64,000 bases of DNA from Fulvimarina pelagi HTCC2506 (GTDB lineage: Bacteria > Pseudomonadota > Alphaproteobacteria > Rhizobiales > Rhizobiaceae): the NCBI RefSeq assembly GCF_000153705.1, contig NZ_DS022272.1:1929839-1993838 (forward strand). The letters are read 5' to 3'. The notes below the pieces were generated by a model. The model was not told the DNA's origin, did not search any database, and saw nothing but the letters and a program-made list of their open reading frames with translations. The position numbers were made by a program, and so were the translations under genes. Shown piece after piece: positions 57,571-64,000 of the stretch; the first letter of the stretch is position 1; every line of letters begins with the position of its first letter.

Positions 57571-59622
57571 TCAGGCACTCGAGGCTTCACTTCGCCTAGC
57601 ATCAGTGCTCCTGTCCTCGCCGTTCGCAGCAGCCCGCAGGCCCATCAGCCGCTCGCGGATCGTTTCGATTTCCTTCTGCATGTATTCGGCCTCTTCAGCC
57701 GAGCGGGCTGCGGACCGGATCCGTTCGCTGAAACGACCGGTATCCGATTTCCAGTCGTCATGGCGGATCGCCACTTCCGCCTCGAGCCCTGAATGGTTAT
57801 TGCGCGATACGATCGGCTCGGACGCCGGCATGTCATGCGTATCGTCTGCAACATGGTTCGCAAAGCGCCATCCACCAGTTTCGCTGCGCCCCTCTCCCGT
57901 GGAGCTCCATGCGCCGCCAGTGGCGTCGCGCCTATGCTCCGGCGTTCGGTGCGTGCCGTCGGACTCTAGCTTCGCGCGCAACGACAGAGGCTCCCGGTCT
58001 GTCGCATCGTCGGACCATGCGTAATCGTCGCCTCCACCGGAGCGCTCCGGTAGGCTAGTATCGCTCGTGCGTAGACCGGACAACGGTTCCATCTCAGGCT
58101 GCAACGTTTCTGTGCCGCGACGATCGCCAAATCTGCGCCCAGCACTGTTCTCGTCAATCATCATCTTCATCGGCTTCCATAGCGCCCAGGCGAGCGCGAT
58201 GCCGAAGCCGGCTACGAAGCCAGCGAGGAAGCCGATCAGTACCGCGGAGCGACGCGACAGACTGGAAGGATTGAGCGGCGGGGTCGCCGAAGAGATCACA
58301 CGGACATTCGCAGTGTTGAGCCGCTCCTGCTCGGCGATCTCGCGGGCTCTGAGAAGAAACGCTTCGTAGACCGCTCGCGACGCTTCGACCTCGCGTTCGA
58401 GTTCACGAAGCCGCACGAAGGCTTCGCTGGTTTCCAATTGCTTTGTCTTCAGTGTATCGATCTGGGCAGTCAGGTCGCTGTCGGTGCTCTCGGCACGCGA
58501 GAGCTCGGTTTCCGTTGCCGATACGATGCGTCCGACCTCCGAACGAATCGCTGCACGGGCAGAGTTCATCGCCTGCGAATTGGCGATCCGGCGCGGATGA
58601 CGCGGTCCCAGCGAGGTCGATAGAATGGCTTCCTGCTGCTGCAGTTCCTGATAGGAATCGCGGAGGCGGTTGAGCGCCGTCGACGTCAGCTCCTCGGGGA
58701 ATGATCCTTCGACAACGTCATCGACGCTCGCCGCGCGCATCTGCTCGACCTTGTTGCGCAGCGCTGTCACATCGCCGCGCGAACGCGCGAGCTGATCGTT
58801 GATCCTGAGAATGTAATCGTCGTCGACAAGTCGACCCCCGACGCCGACCAGCCGGTTTTCCTGCTTGTAGGCCTCGACCGCACGCTCTGCCTCGCTCACG
58901 CTTGTGCGCAATTCTTCAAGCCGGCTCGAAAGCGCGTCACTGGCGCGGCGCGCCGTCGATGACTGCACACGACCGAGTTCATTGATGAAGGTGTCGGCGA
59001 GAAGGTTCGCGAGACGTGCGGACTTCTGCGGCGAGGTCGTCTCGATGCCAAGATGAAGAACGAAGCTCTTCGACTCGCGCGAAACCGACATCTTGCGGCG
59101 GAGATTGTCGAGGGTGACAAGCTCGATCCGCGAGAGCGGTGCGCCCTCCGGTGAAGACACTTCCCTCTCGCTCAGTCCGAGATAGTCCTTGACGGTATCG
59201 AGTATCGAAAAGCCTCTGCCATTGAATTCCGGGTCGTTGATGAGGTCGGCACTTTCGATCACCGTCATCAGGACATCGTTGGAATCAATGACGGCGGTCT
59301 GGCTTTCGATCAACGCAAGCGTCGCATCGCTCGGCAGGCCGTTCGGCGTGACCTCGTTCTGCACCACCTTGATATCGCGTGGGTCGACGAGCACCTGCGT
59401 CGTCGCCTCGTAGAGCTTCGGGGTCATCAGCGCGTAGCCGGCCGCGAGCCCGGCGCCTGCGAGAGCACAGAACAGGATGAACCACTTCGCCTTGAAAAGC
59501 TTGCCTACCAAGTAGATCGGATCAACGAGTGAGGGCCCTTTGAGCGCCTGCTCTTCGAACCCTTCCCGCTGGTTCCGGGAGGGCGCCAGACTTTCACGTT
59601 GATCGGAATGCGAAGTGAACAT
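57571..59622 (-). CDS. Exopolysaccharide chain-length/transport protein (Wzz/GNVR type) without kinase domain
   Basis: A protein of about 683 residues of the PCP-2/ExoP-Wzc N-terminal type. TM1 is AKWFILFCALAGAGLAAGYALM, then the Wzz domain (LYEATTQVLVDPRDIKVV), a long coiled coil (about 180-440), a GNVR-type segment (ISSATPPLNPSSLSRRSAVLIGF) and TM2 (IGFLAGFVAGFGIALAWALW). After TM2 come about 190 polar, Arg/Ser/Glu-rich residues with no Walker A motif or tyrosine cluster. Family members control polysaccharide chain length and export. The start is uncertain (Met at 59622 or 59640). Confidence 0.85.
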   Translation of the reverse strand: MFTSHSDQRESLAPSRNQREGFEEQALKGPSLVDPIYLVGKLFKAKWFILFCALAGAGLAAGYALMTPKLYEATTQVLVDPRDIKVVQNEVTPNGLPSDATLALIESQTAVIDSNDVLMTVIESADLINDPEFNGRGFSILDTVKDYLGLSEREVSSPEGAPLSRIELVTLDNLRRKMSVSRESKSFVLHLGIETTSPQKSARLANLLADTFINELGRVQSSTARRASDALSSRLEELRTSVSEAERAVEAYKQENRLVGVGGRLVDDDYILRINDQLARSRGDVTALRNKVEQMRAASVDDVVEGSFPEELTSTALNRLRDSYQELQQQEAILSTSLGPRHPRRIANSQAMNSARAAIRSEVGRIVSATETELSRAESTDSDLTAQIDTLKTKQLETSEAFVRLRELEREVEASRAVYEAFLLRAREIAEQERLNTANVRVISSATPPLNPSSLSRRSAVLIGFLAGFVAGFGIALAWALWKPMKMMIDENSAGRRFGDRRGTETLQPEMEPLSGLRTSDTSLPERSGGGDDYAWSDDATDREPLSLRAKLESDGTHRTPEHRRDATGGAWSSTGEGRSETGGWRFANHVADDTHDMPASEPIVSRNNHSGLEAEVAIRHDDWKSDTGRFSERIRSAARSAEEAEYMQKEIETIRERLMGLRAAANGEDRSTDARRSEASSA

Positions 59623-60187
59623 GGTTTGCAGCACAATCATCGAATACGCCGCGCCACCCCGGACGAGCGGCACTTCCCGAGCCCGAAATCTGAACAGACA
59701 TGCTCAATATTTCGTTAATTTCGTGCTGGAATGAGCGCTGACTGCCGAGGTTTCTAACGCTCCGAGCCCGTTTCCAGCGAAGGTGGTCTGCATCCTTGCA
59801 TCCGACACCTACAATTCTGACCAGACATTCGCCGCTCTGAAGCGCCAAATGACTTCGACGATGCACGGTACCGTATCCGCTGGACGCCTCTTTGGCGGCG
59901 GAACAATTCATGCGATATTTTTAACATAGATGCAAAAAACGCTAGAAATATAGTGGAATTCGCAACGACGTATATTTGAGAATATTCCACGCAAAAAATT
60001 TGTTTCGCACATGCATTTTATTATTAAACTAATTATTTTGCGGATCACACGCATGTATTAAGCAGAAAGTGAGCCGGCTATATTCATCTGTGACTGTGCT
60101 TAGAAAGGCGAAGTGCACCTCAACCGAACGCGGAACCGAATTAGATTATTGCGCAGCTTGCTAAAGAATTGAACGACCGATTAGCCT
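59623..60187. promoter_or_regulatory. AT-rich intergenic region upstream of the chain-length gene (565 bases)
   Basis: No supported gene. The part from about 59912 to 60075 is strongly AT-rich compared with the rest of the window, with runs such as TATTTTTAAC and TTTTATTATTAAAC. It has a 7-bp inverted repeat GTGGAAT/ATTCCAC (59953-59959 with 59984-59990). It probably holds the promoter of the exopolysaccharide gene to its left. Confidence 0.6.
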
Positions 60188-61321
60188 CTATGGCGCCATT
60201 CGCCGCTTCAGCATCACCATCCAGTCCTTTTCCGCATAATCCCTTGTCAGCGGCAACGGGCGATGGGGTGAGCCGTCATCGCGGGGCATGACGTCCGGAA
60301 TCCACGTGTACCTGTCGGTGATGCCCCAGACGACGACCATTTCTGGCCTCTTCCAGGCGAAGATGCCGTCGAGGAAATCCTTGACTATGGAATACGCCGC
60401 CTCGTCCATGATCGCGGGGTCGGTGGAGCTTTCAAGGTCGATGACGTCCAGTTCTGTTACCAGCAGCGCTACGCCCAATCGGTCGAGTTCGCGGTGAAAC
60501 GCTTCAAGTCCCTCTTTGTCGATCTCGCGGCCGACATAGAGATGGCCCTGGATGCCTACGCCGCGAATATCGATGCCGCCGTCCTGGAGCTGTCGTACGA
60601 GTTGCAGCATGACCTTGCGGCGTTCGGTGTAAAGCTCTCCCTTCCATTCGAGATCGAAGTCGTTGATCACGAGCCGCGCGCTTGGGTCGGTTCGTGCCAC
60701 TGTTTGATAGGCGAGCGGAATGTGCAGGGGTCCAAGCATTCGCAGCCAGTAAGTGTCACGCAGCGGTCCATCCTCGCGCGGGTCATAGGCGATCACCTCG
60801 TTGACGACATCCCAGCCAGTAAGCCGGCCGCGATAGCGATCCGTCACCCGTTCGATATGTTCGATCAGCACACTCTCGGCCTCACGGCGGCTTGAGATCT
60901 CCTCTACCCAATCCGGCATGGCGCCCCACCAGACGTGGGTGTGGCCTCGCGTCAGTTTGCCGTTCGTTGTAGCGAAATCGACCAGCCGGTCCGCAGGCTC
61001 GAAATTCCACCGATCGCGCTCGGGATGTATCATGCTGAACTTGAGTTCGTTCATCGGCATGACGAGGTCGTAGTGGTCGAGAAATGCTTTGCCGTAACGT
61101 GGATCGGAGTCGAAATAATCGCTCTGGATTGCGCCTCCGAGCGCGACACGGCCGTCCCGCGCTACGGCTCCGGTGGCGCCTCCGAACGTCGCCGCCGTGA
61201 TAGCCATACCAAGCCCCGCCTTGATGGCAGAACGACGCGTTAACGGCTGACGCGTAGAATTCGCGGGACGGAACTTGCCGATCGCCATGGATCGCAGTTG
61301 CTTCTTTGCGTCCTCAGTCAT
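60188..61321 (-). CDS. GH10 family endo-beta-1,4-xylanase-like protein, Tat-exported
   Basis: A 377-residue protein with a twin-arginine signal (LTRRSAIKAGLGMAITAAT) and a GH10 catalytic domain. The acid/base is Glu175 in WDVVNEVIAYD, the nucleophile Glu290 in VTELDVID. GHTHVWWGAMPDWV and VVWGITDRYTW are further GH10 segments. GH10 enzymes cut beta-1,4-xylan-type chains; a role in trimming the cell's own exopolysaccharide is inferred from the neighbours (Wzz/GNVR protein, flippase, WecG). The protein lacks a carbohydrate-binding module. Met12 is an alternative start. Confidence 0.88.
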   Translation of the reverse strand: MTEDAKKQLRSMAIGKFRPANSTRQPLTRRSAIKAGLGMAITAATFGGATGAVARDGRVALGGAIQSDYFDSDPRYGKAFLDHYDLVMPMNELKFSMIHPERDRWNFEPADRLVDFATTNGKLTRGHTHVWWGAMPDWVEEISSRREAESVLIEHIERVTDRYRGRLTGWDVVNEVIAYDPREDGPLRDTYWLRMLGPLHIPLAYQTVARTDPSARLVINDFDLEWKGELYTERRKVMLQLVRQLQDGGIDIRGVGIQGHLYVGREIDKEGLEAFHRELDRLGVALLVTELDVIDLESSTDPAIMDEAAYSIVKDFLDGIFAWKRPEMVVVWGITDRYTWIPDVMPRDDGSPHRPLPLTRDYAEKDWMVMLKRRMAP

Positions 61322-61359: not shown

Positions 61360-62670
61360 ATGAAAAGGATCTCAGTGTTGCGCCGAACTCTTAAGGCCAA
61401 CCTAAGTATCCTTCGCGACTACGCCTCGCTGATCTCCGGATCACTGGGCAGGCTCGTTCTGTCGCTCGGTTATTTCGTCTGCATCGCCAACGGTCTGTCG
61501 ATCGGCGATTTCGGCCTCTTCGCCACGGCCTCCGCTACTGGGGTCATGCTCTCGCGAATTGCAAGCCTCGGATTTTACTCACCGCTCTACCGGGCAGCCA
61601 CGGTCAAGCCGCATCTGATCGGCACGTACACTGCAGGTTACATTGCCGCCTCTGTACTTTCCCTGCCGCTCGTCCTGTTGGCGGCTTCGATCCTGTATCT
61701 GATGATCTTCGCGGGCGAGATGAGCCTTGCCGCCTTCGGTCTGGTTATCGCTGCGGAAATTGTTGGCTGGCGTACGCTGGAGATCGTCATCATCGTCAAC
61801 AACGGCATCGGTCGGTTCGGGCGAGGTGCCATCGTCACCATATTCGGAGTGGCGGTGAAGGCGCTCGCTGCGATCGGCTTCTGGTTTCTTGCCGACGGAG
61901 CGCTCCTAACTTGGGCGATCTACTATCTCGGCGCAAACATGTTCTCCGCCGCTATCGCTGCAGCAATCACCTATCCGCGCCAACGCCTGCGCTTCCAGCC
62001 GAAACTCTATGTCGCTCGCTGGCGCGATAGCGTTTCGGTCTCAGGTGCGGACATGGTTTTCTATCTCCAATCCGATCTCGACAAGCTGCTCGTCTTGGCA
62101 TTCGGCGGCCCGGCCGCGGCCGGAATCTACGCCATCATCATGCGGCTCGTGGACCTCACTGCGCTACCGATGCGCTCCTTCAACACACTGATCGTCCAGA
62201 AAATCATGAAGGTGCCGGCCTTTCTCGACAGCTGGGCGCGCCGTGTCGGCATAGAAGCCGCGATTGCCTTTGTTTCGACCACTGGTCTTCTCGCCCTCGG
62301 CGGCTTTCTCTGGGTTTTCCCCACTGCCCTCGGAGAGAATGTCGCGGATGCGGCGCCCTTCATCTTGCTCGCTCTGGCCGTGCCGGCCTTTCGTAACCTC
62401 GTCGAATACCAAGCTGAACTGCTCTATGCCCGCGGCAAGACCACGATACGGGTGGCAATCCTGGCTCTCTGCGCTCTACTCAAGGCAGGACTTCTCGCGG
62501 CCGTGCTCGTCTCGTTGGAGGCAGAAATGACCTGGATTGTCATGCTCAACGGGGTCTTCGCGCTGCTTTGGCTCACCTCCGCGACAGCAAGCTACGCTGC
62601 CCTCGACTGGCGCGGTTGGCCCGGCATCGGCGAGCGCCGGACCGAACGCGAAGCGACCGCGCTCTCCTGA
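61360..62670 (+). CDS. Polysaccharide flippase (Wzx/MATE-like)
   Basis: A 436-residue integral membrane protein with about twelve segments and the oligosaccharide-flippase character (MOP superfamily): DYASLISGSLGRLVLSLGYFVC, GDFGLFATASATGVMLSRIASLG, VSGADMVFYLQSDLDKLLVLAFGGP and FGGPAAAGIYAIIMRLVDL. The pattern of a charged residue inside membrane segments (SDLDKLL) fits substrate translocation. It would move lipid-linked polysaccharide units across the inner membrane. It is divergent from the GH10 gene with 38 bases between start codons. Confidence 0.85.
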   Translation: MKRISVLRRTLKANLSILRDYASLISGSLGRLVLSLGYFVCIANGLSIGDFGLFATASATGVMLSRIASLGFYSPLYRAATVKPHLIGTYTAGYIAASVLSLPLVLLAASILYLMIFAGEMSLAAFGLVIAAEIVGWRTLEIVIIVNNGIGRFGRGAIVTIFGVAVKALAAIGFWFLADGALLTWAIYYLGANMFSAAIAAAITYPRQRLRFQPKLYVARWRDSVSVSGADMVFYLQSDLDKLLVLAFGGPAAAGIYAIIMRLVDLTALPMRSFNTLIVQKIMKVPAFLDSWARRVGIEAAIAFVSTTGLLALGGFLWVFPTALGENVADAAPFILLALAVPAFRNLVEYQAELLYARGKTTIRVAILALCALLKAGLLAAVLVSLEAEMTWIVMLNGVFALLWLTSATASYAALDWRGWPGIGERRTEREATALS

Positions 62671-62722: not shown

Positions 62723-63604
62723 TCAGTTGAGGCCGGCCACCCTTCGAAGAAGCGCGCTGTCTGTCCCGGTGAAAGACTGTATCCCAGCCGCGACGTGATG
62801 CGCCTCTAACGACGCGATGAACCGACGGAGGACCGGCTCGGTCATCGCATCGCCGGCCCAATACATCCGGCAGCGCTCAAAGCTGACGGGGTAGTGCCGG
62901 TCAGGCCGGTTCTCGATCTCGTCGACGAAGCGCCCATAGATCGTGCATTCAGAAATCAACCTTGTCCGCGCAAGGGCGTCGATCGCTGAGTGACCCGTCA
63001 CGCTTTCAATCCGAGCGCTCATATCCCGGACTGAGGCGGTGTTCCAGGCTATCAGGGTCCCGATATAGCCTGTGTCCGTCACTTTCGGTTCCGGAATACC
63101 GAGGAATTCGCCCGCTTTACGTGACCAGTCGTAGTGAACCTTTTGATATTCCGCGAGAGCTGTGCGCACGCCACCGGGCTTGCGATAGAACGCGACCCGG
63201 CCTTTTTCGTCCTCGAAGTTCCCGGTCTCGAAATCGCGCAGAAACACGACGTCGGAGTCGACAGTTATCAATGCGGTCTCTTCGAGTTTCGCCCCAAGCA
63301 TGATGCGGCGAAGCTGCTGGGTGTGCCAGCCGCGAAGAGGCAAGCCCACAGGTGTCAGCCAGATACGCCGTTTGCCGAGCCGTGTCGGATCAGGGAAGGC
63401 GCGAAGCCACCATGGGAACAGGTCTCGCTCATCGACCACTTCCCGCTTTGGTCCTTCAAGGACGCGAAACATCGATACGTCGCGCGACTCGACTGCCAGG
63501 ATGTGCCTGGTATGCCCACGCACCCGCGCATCGATCGAATCACAGAGCAGGCGGCAACGCTCGAAATCGCCTCGATAGCTGGAAGTGACGATGGCCTGTG
63601 ACAA
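62723..63604 (-). CDS. DUF6492 family protein (glycosyltransferase-like)
   Basis: A 293-residue protein: MSQAIVTSSYRGDFERCRLLCDSID at the start, ILAVESRDVSMF, LPLRGWHTQQLRRIMLGAKLEE and a DxD-like VDSDVVFLRDF near 118-128, then RVAFYRKPGG and FVDEIENRPDRHYPVSF. The sequence fits DUF6492, whose members sit in polysaccharide loci and resemble GT-A transferases; the sugar donor is unknown. The DxD suggests a nucleotide-sugar enzyme. It runs opposite to the flippase gene and is separated by 52 bases from its stop. Confidence 0.7.
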   Translation of the reverse strand: MSQAIVTSSYRGDFERCRLLCDSIDARVRGHTRHILAVESRDVSMFRVLEGPKREVVDERDLFPWWLRAFPDPTRLGKRRIWLTPVGLPLRGWHTQQLRRIMLGAKLEETALITVDSDVVFLRDFETGNFEDEKGRVAFYRKPGGVRTALAEYQKVHYDWSRKAGEFLGIPEPKVTDTGYIGTLIAWNTASVRDMSARIESVTGHSAIDALARTRLISECTIYGRFVDEIENRPDRHYPVSFERCRMYWAGDAMTEPVLRRFIASLEAHHVAAGIQSFTGTDSALLRRVAGLN

Positions 63605-63707: not shown

Positions 63708-64000
63708 TTAGTGTGCCGCGCGCCGAGCCAGCCTCTCGTGCAGGATGTCGGCGAGGAAGATGGGATTTCCCAAGATGTAACGCCGCCAAAGCCGGGAGGG
63801 CTCGAGTGTGAGCCGCCAGATCCATTCGAGCCGGAGCCGGCGTATCGCGAGCGGCGCGCGCGGCACATTCCCGGCGAGGAAGTCGAACAGGGCTCCGACG
63901 CCCACCAAGATCCCCCCGTGCCGGGCATCGAGATGCTCGGTCATGAAGCGCTCCTGCGCCGGCACCCCCATGGCGACAAGGACGACGTCAAAACGTTTCA
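63708..64000 (-). CDS. WecG/TagA/CpsF-type glycosyltransferase, C-terminal part
   Basis: The reverse strand from the right edge to 63708 encodes about 96 residues of an unfinished gene. It reads DVVLVAMGVPAQERFM...GGILVGVGALFDFLAGNVPRAPLAIRRLRLEWIWRL, which is the C-terminal half of the WecG/TagA/CpsF family: the VAMGxPxQE motif and the VGAxFDFxAGxxxRAP motif, then the W.. RLxxEP region. These enzymes add N-acetylmannosaminuronic acid or a related sugar to the lipid carrier. The N-terminal part and its neighbours lie beyond the window. Confidence 0.9.
   Translation of the reverse strand, partial: KRFDVVLVAMGVPAQERFMTEHLDARHGGILVGVGALFDFLAGNVPRAPLAIRRLRLEWIWRLTLEPSRLWRRYILGNPIFLADILHERLARRAAH

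Follow-up and report, generated by a model that had tools for sequence, protein, structure and literature searches.

The only GH10 glycoside hydrolase gene of Fulvimarina pelagi HTCC2506 lies among genes for surface polysaccharide assembly, and we propose, with a probability of about two in three, that its product is a periplasmic hydrolase dedicated to the Wzx/Wzy polysaccharide that the cell itself makes, whose chains it would trim or clear. The enzyme probably trims this self-made polymer and not plant xylan, because its relatives keep the same gene arrangement while the sugar-binding pocket has drifted from that of true xylanases. The family, the catalytic residues, the fold, the twin-arginine motif, the linkage to Wzz, Wzx and WecG, and the divergence of the substrate pocket were all computed. 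Coordinates refer to the window, i.e., the whole 64,000-nucleotide stretch of contig NZ_DS022272.1 that was analysed, unless stated otherwise.

The GH10 gene and its neighbourhood

The gene occupies positions 60188..61321 on the minus strand and encodes 377 aa from an ATG start with no internal stops. PF00331 (GH10) is the single Pfam match of the protein (E 2.3e-65; 221.3 bits versus a curated cut-off of 22.1), and no other GH10 match was found in the 3.8-Mb genome. In an alignment to 1v6y and 1vbr, E175 of the WDVVNE motif (codon 60797..60799, minus strand) and E290 of the VTELDV motif (codon 60452..60454, minus strand) line up with the general acid/base and the nucleophile, respectively, of solved xylanases, and both positions carry Glu in all 82 exopolysaccharide (EPS)-linked and all 12 catabolic-context GH10s that were aligned. 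An AlphaFold2 model for which the window protein was combined with 15 relatives (pLDDT 79.6 on average; residues 1-54 and 342-352, with pLDDT below 50, are unreliable) superimposes on C. fimi Cex and T. petrophila Xyn10B with Z ~36 and an rmsd of 2.4 over 305-310 residues. Membership in GH10 is thus borne out both by the profile match and by the paired catalytic glutamates in a beta/alpha barrel. A degraded or truncated GH10 gene is ruled out by the intact reading frame and the whole catalytic core.

On one side of the GH10 gene is a Wzz/GNVR chain-length regulator gene recognised by Pfam (57571..59673, minus strand), the genome's only Wzz match, whose product showed no kinase domain in a Pfam search. 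On the other side is a Wzx-type flippase gene (61360..62670, plus strand), divergent from GH10, with the two start codons 38 bp apart. The Polysacc_synt match of the flippase (E 2.6e-5, 24.2 bits) falls under the curated cut-off of 28.2, so the name Wzx rests on synteny too. Beyond the flippase are a DUF6492 gene (62723..63604, minus strand; PF20102, E 1.6e-21), whose product is probably a glycosyltransferase of the pathway, and the genome's only WecG/TagA/CpsF glycosyltransferase gene (63708..64523, minus strand), of which the 3' part, 63708..64000, is inside the window and the rest beyond it. A group-1 glycosyltransferase gene (64520-65785) adjoins WecG past the window end and is followed by HisG-like genes, named from reading their translations. 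The original prediction of a GH10 enzyme with both catalytic glutamates, encoded between a chain-length regulator and a flippase, is therefore upheld by Pfam, the alignment and the neighbours. Like other degradative enzymes of EPS clusters, this one is encoded with assembly genes, as Wzz, Wzx, DUF6492, WecG and GT4 are all adjacent, and the GH10 protein would be produced together with the polysaccharide assembly proteins.

The spacer that separates GH10 from Wzz (59674-60187) is AT-rich and 514 bp long, with GC falling as low as 0.46 when read in 500-base windows. Between the end of the GH10 frame and the point where the Wzz frame opens there are 488 bases here versus 4-165 in the 17 other syntenic loci with Wzz. 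Between the genes of this region, there were 2 promoter-like sites, with 1.4 expected, and no terminators, with 2.1 expected.

Genome-wide, profile searches returned one match each for Wzz, WecG and Poly_export and two each for Wzy_C and the initiating transferase; the Wza, Wzy and initiating-transferase genes are sited elsewhere, away from the GH10 block. The polysaccharide pathway looks split in this genome, because a Wzy gene about 88 kb off (C4:1902090) corresponds (E 2.4e-146) to the Wzy that in Aurantimonas aggregata (L035) adjoins the block. The sole Poly_export (Wza-type) match is a short ORF of 196 aa (L151 9635-10225; C4, about 999.6-1000.2 kb), distant from the GH10 locus as well as from the Wzy and initiating-transferase genes.

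Conservation of the locus and distribution of GH10 genes

A search of a genome collection with the window protein, which was pattern-based and non-exhaustive, gave 15 loci in Fulvimarina, Aurantimonas, Aureimonas and Consotaella, the best named match being Fulvimarina endophytica with 64% identity. The co-occurrence of GH10 with Wzx and WecG in related genomes, proposed earlier as a check, was confirmed, as the block GT4-WecG-DUF6492-|Wzx|-GH10 is present in all 15 loci. For residue and signal counts, we assembled a syntenic set of 20 loci (the window, L020, L023, L026, L028-L030, L032, L035-L038 and L041-L048), in which duplicates were counted once; the named loci L034, L039 and L040, whose contigs equal in length those of the unnamed L032, L029 and L028, were dropped beforehand as duplicates. 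This set was picked for carrying the block, so that its 20/20 is partly by definition and the unbiased count is 15/15. Wzz is present in 18 of the 20, and a Wzy marker in 10, with Wzy joined to the block in Aurantimonas, L020 and L026. Three GH10 loci from the window's own family (L019, L027 and L033) are without this gene block.

The position of Wzz bears on another explanation, namely that GH10 sets chain length or releases the finished polymer by cutting high-molecular-weight polymer to size with Wzz, in the logic of ExoK and ExsH. We consider this unlikely. It is consistent with the adjacency of GH10 to the genome's only Wzz on the same strand and with Wzz coming after GH10 in 13 of the 15 close-relative loci; however, in the remaining two, L034 (F. 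endophytica) and L040, GH10 is present but the stretch examined contains no Wzz. In L034 (11113-20506), the block stops at GH10 and is followed by transketolase-like and TRAP-transporter-like genes, as judged from their translations.

GH10 is patchy, since 16 of 61 genomes surveyed carry it, as do 62 of 249 genomes sampled from the order Hyphomicrobiales, the present genome being included in both. Where it occurs in the order, it is mostly near EPS genes. The order-wide sample comprised 72 GH10 neighbourhoods from 66 genomes and 33 genera, which were scored for six EPS-core markers (Wzz, WecG, Wzx, Wzy, Wza and PGT) within a radius of ~9.5 kb; of these 72, the window's own locus alone supplied marker queries. 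At least one marker was present in 59/72 neighbourhoods and at least two in 45/72, and 26 of the 33 genera have at least one EPS-linked GH10 locus; 13 neighbourhoods had no EPS marker, and four of those had a catabolic-type marker. Chance placement beside EPS genes is ruled out by control regions of the same genomes, at hand-picked positions, where an EPS marker was present in 0/19 (one, L108, held a sugar-ABC gene). Among 12 loci from the class outside the order, three were EPS-linked, six had a catabolic-type marker (three of them on a single marker) and three had neither.

For comparisons of context, 113 GH10 rows were sorted into 82 EPS, 12 catabolic and 19 other, a single EPS marker sufficing for the EPS label. 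Four of the 12 catabolic rows likewise rest on a single marker (L087, L091, L145 and L149); rows with sugar-ABC genes only went to the other group (L021, L055, L144, L162 and L164), and 10 EPS rows contain GH3 or a sugar-ABC gene as well. We left out six GH10 matches that were partial or weak (two in G161 and one each in G207, G199, G221 and G222).

We also compared 17 plasmid loci (L129-L136 and L156-L164) chosen from the best 30 of 76 records. As 13 of these 17 furnished part of the marker queries, those loci are not independent of the marker scoring. By annotation, six are EPS-type (Methylosinus C49, Nostoc UHCC 0302, Rhizobium CB3171, CCGE532, R. tumorigenes and R. leguminosarum BT01), seven are catabolic (Sphingobium yanoikuyae, Sphingomonas parapaucimobilis, Caulobacter rhizosphaerae, Runella, Hymenobacter, Paraburkholderia and Thermus), two are neither (Granulicella and Streptomyces) and two are unannotated, both with EPS markers. 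On the plasmid of the cyanobacterium Nostoc sp. UHCC 0302 (L132 8954-13219), the GH10 gene lies between a WecB/TagA/CpsF transferase gene and a polysaccharide tyrosine autokinase gene, so that a comparable layout exists in a different phylum.

A maximum-likelihood tree of 115 rows was built by a quick search; several of its forks are unresolved and five terminal branches are long. In it, the window GH10 falls in a clade of 46 rows (SH-aLRT 100). All 46 have an EPS context, and 39 have two or more core markers. On this tree, a minimum of four changes separates EPS rows from catabolic or PDB ones. As other EPS-linked GH10s fall outside the 46-row clade, the link between GH10 and EPS may have arisen more than once, or may have been lost in between.

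The glycone pocket and the question of xylan

The glycone pocket of the window protein differs from that of xylanases at several aligned positions. We use Cex numbering here, in which Glu43, Asn44, His80, His85, Gln87 and the other residues named below have roles in the glycone subsites; passages of PMC5811086 do not give these roles. The Glu43 position is M90 (61052..61054, minus strand), and Met is found in 19/20 syntenic orthologues; both PDB references and 10/12 catabolic-context GH10s have Glu. By alignment, the Gln87 and His85 positions are A134 and W132 (stretch 60920..60928, minus strand). Trp replaces His85 in 18/20 syntenic orthologues, and 7/12 catabolic-context GH10s have His; Gln87 is Gln in 0/20 syntenic and 5/12 catabolic-context GH10s, in some of which this column is poorly aligned. 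The window protein keeps the Asn44 equivalent and, by alignment, His80 (60941-60943). The latter position is Thr in 15/20 syntenic orthologues, His in 12/12 catabolic-context GH10s and His in 60/62 other EPS-linked ones. Equivalents of E127, E233, N126, Q203, H205, W84, K47 and W273 are kept in all 20 syntenic orthologues. Among the 62 other EPS-linked GH10s, Glu43 is retained in 41 and Asn44 in 10 (Asn44 in 8/12 catabolic ones). The 46-row clade is not uniform, as Glu43 is retained in 20 of its members and His80 in 31. These counts come from related rows and hence are not independent. Taken from sequence alignment, the changes suggest that the glycone pocket no longer fits xylan as such.

It is conceivable that the enzyme works as an ordinary endo-beta-1,4-xylanase on xylan from plants or algae and lies in an EPS locus by chance, and this we hold to be very improbable. 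The protein does belong to GH10, its closest solved structures are GH10 xylanases (among the best 60 of 140 matches), and the catalytic and several subsite -1 residues are retained. With the GH10 endo-beta-1,4-xylanases Cex and Xyn10B it shares family, fold and catalytic pair. However, it differs from both in having Met, Trp and Ala at Glu43, His85 and Gln87, and in an EPS instead of a xylan-utilisation neighbourhood. Partners for xylan utilisation of the GH43, GH67 or TonB/SusD kind did not appear: the 20-kb neighbourhood of the gene (L002) contained no catabolic markers, and a genome search for GH43 and GH67 found neither. Annotated catabolic GH10 loci look different, with GH43, GH3, TonB and xylAB as neighbours in Sphingomonas parapaucimobilis and GH43 and TonB in Sphingobium. 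The suggestion made from the window alone, that the enzyme serves an own polysaccharide and not plant-xylan catabolism, gains support from the EPS synteny conserved across genera, the EPS-only clade, the absence of GH43 and GH67 from the genome search and the altered glycone pocket.

Export, probable function and known systems

A twin-arginine motif, TRRSAIK, was read from the sequence at residues 28-34 (61220..61240, minus strand), with a hydrophobic stretch after it, and TatC was found in the genome. A simple home-made rule, which overlooks some real-looking motifs, recognised a Tat-like signal in 20/20 syntenic orthologues, 73/82 EPS-linked, 8/12 catabolic-neighbour and 12/19 other GH10s. 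In view of these counts across all three groups, Tat export is ordinary for the GH10s of these bacteria, and the original expectation that it would be uncommon for such enzymes was not borne out.

On the mechanism that we favour, the folded GH10 protein would reach the periplasm via Tat and there cut beta-glycosidic bonds of the polymer by the retaining mechanism, with E175 as acid/base and E290 as nucleophile, and it would thereby trim or clear chains that were elongated by Wzy/Wzz but not properly exported. We infer the activity, the periplasmic location, the substrate and the preference for trimming or clearing over length setting or matrix remodelling. Delivery to the periplasm by Tat speaks against the role in length setting or release that was described above. 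The succinoglycan depolymerases ExoK and ExsH are extracellular GH16 enzymes. The likeness to them lies in the idea that a hydrolase acts on EPS made by the same cell; the window protein, in contrast, has a Tat signal and matches only GH10 in Pfam, so that ExoK and ExsH are a functional analogy only. Since the Tat route ends in the periplasm, AlgL-like periplasmic enzymes offer a closer parallel than ExoK/ExsH.

The alginate enzyme AlgL, a lyase, and the Psl enzyme PslG, of GH39, differ from the window GH10 in enzyme family, polymer and assembly system. However, both are degradative enzymes of P. aeruginosa that are encoded in the operon building their substrate, as the window GH10 appears to be, and AlgL rids the periplasm of accumulated polymer (PMC8829089, PMC9075953). 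By likeness to these two enzymes, trimming or clearing of chains is the most likely function of GH10. R. leguminosarum PssW was also considered as a hydrolase parallel and was set aside, since the literature passages on it did not describe a hydrolase.

A more direct comparison is offered by PrmN (BXU08_RS00415) of Sphingomonas sp. LM7, a GH10 enzyme encoded inside the Wzx/Wzy-type promonan EPS cluster. A literature search, with most subscription papers outside its reach, found PMC11340318 as the sole paper that describes GH10 within an EPS cluster. Compared by description, the promonan cluster also contains WecG, Wzz and Wzx, but its gene order is different. According to that paper, promonan consists of Glc, GlcA and Gal, 3- and 4-linked, and xylose is absent from the listed constituents (PMC11340318). 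Deletion of prmN left colony morphology and EPS production unchanged, whereas deletion of prmQ (GH16) in the same cluster led to a rugose colony (PMC11340318). The change in colony texture on loss of prmQ indicates that cluster hydrolases can alter polymer properties, which favours length setting by GH10, while the lack of a gross effect on loss of prmN speaks against it. The absence of a prmN phenotype weakens any essential GH10 role, and the fact that cells can lose prmN with no change in colony form or EPS production is more in keeping with a housekeeping or conditional role.

The LM7 authors suspect that the cluster hydrolases modify the matrix and so permit growth and division (PMC11340318). 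In line with this, GH10 might act outside the cell, where it would remodel or recycle the self-made matrix to allow detachment or growth through it. The genetic linkage to EPS would be the same, but the enzyme would require export past the periplasm, and we regard this role as quite unlikely. Trimming or clearing of chains in the periplasm remains our preferred reading. Besides the prmN result, the points that count against it are the GH10 neighbourhoods without EPS markers inside and outside the order, the three loci of the window's own family that are without the block, and the siting of the Wza, Wzy and initiating-transferase genes away from it.

Degradative enzymes encoded in EPS clusters are already known, and the novelty here lies in how widely GH10 is linked to EPS and in the altered pocket. 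We see even chances for a broader proposal, according to which a GH10 subfamily in many Hyphomicrobiales has shifted from xylan breakdown to the cell's own Wzx/Wzy polysaccharide, with a new non-xylan specificity and a pocket (Glu43, Asn44, His80, His85 and Gln87) that varies by lineage with the polymer; similar cases would exist in a cyanobacterium and in other Alphaproteobacteria. A link between Nostoc commune and a xylanase received no confirmation in the abstract openings that the literature search returned. If the proposal is true, a large branch of GH10 acts on something other than xylan, changes in the pocket could aid the prediction of polymer structure from sequence, and a toolset for cutting bacterial matrix becomes testable. 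GH10s of EPS loci carry the public label endo-1,4-beta-xylanase, as in the Methylosinus, Nostoc and Rhizobium plasmid cases, and therefore EPS-processing enzymes may be tallied as plant-wall degraders.

DUF6492 (PF20102) is a steady partner in EPS loci, being present in all 15 close-relative loci and in nine further GH10 neighbourhoods that are not part of the syntenic set (L053, L067, L071, L072, L077, L078, L079, L083 and L089).
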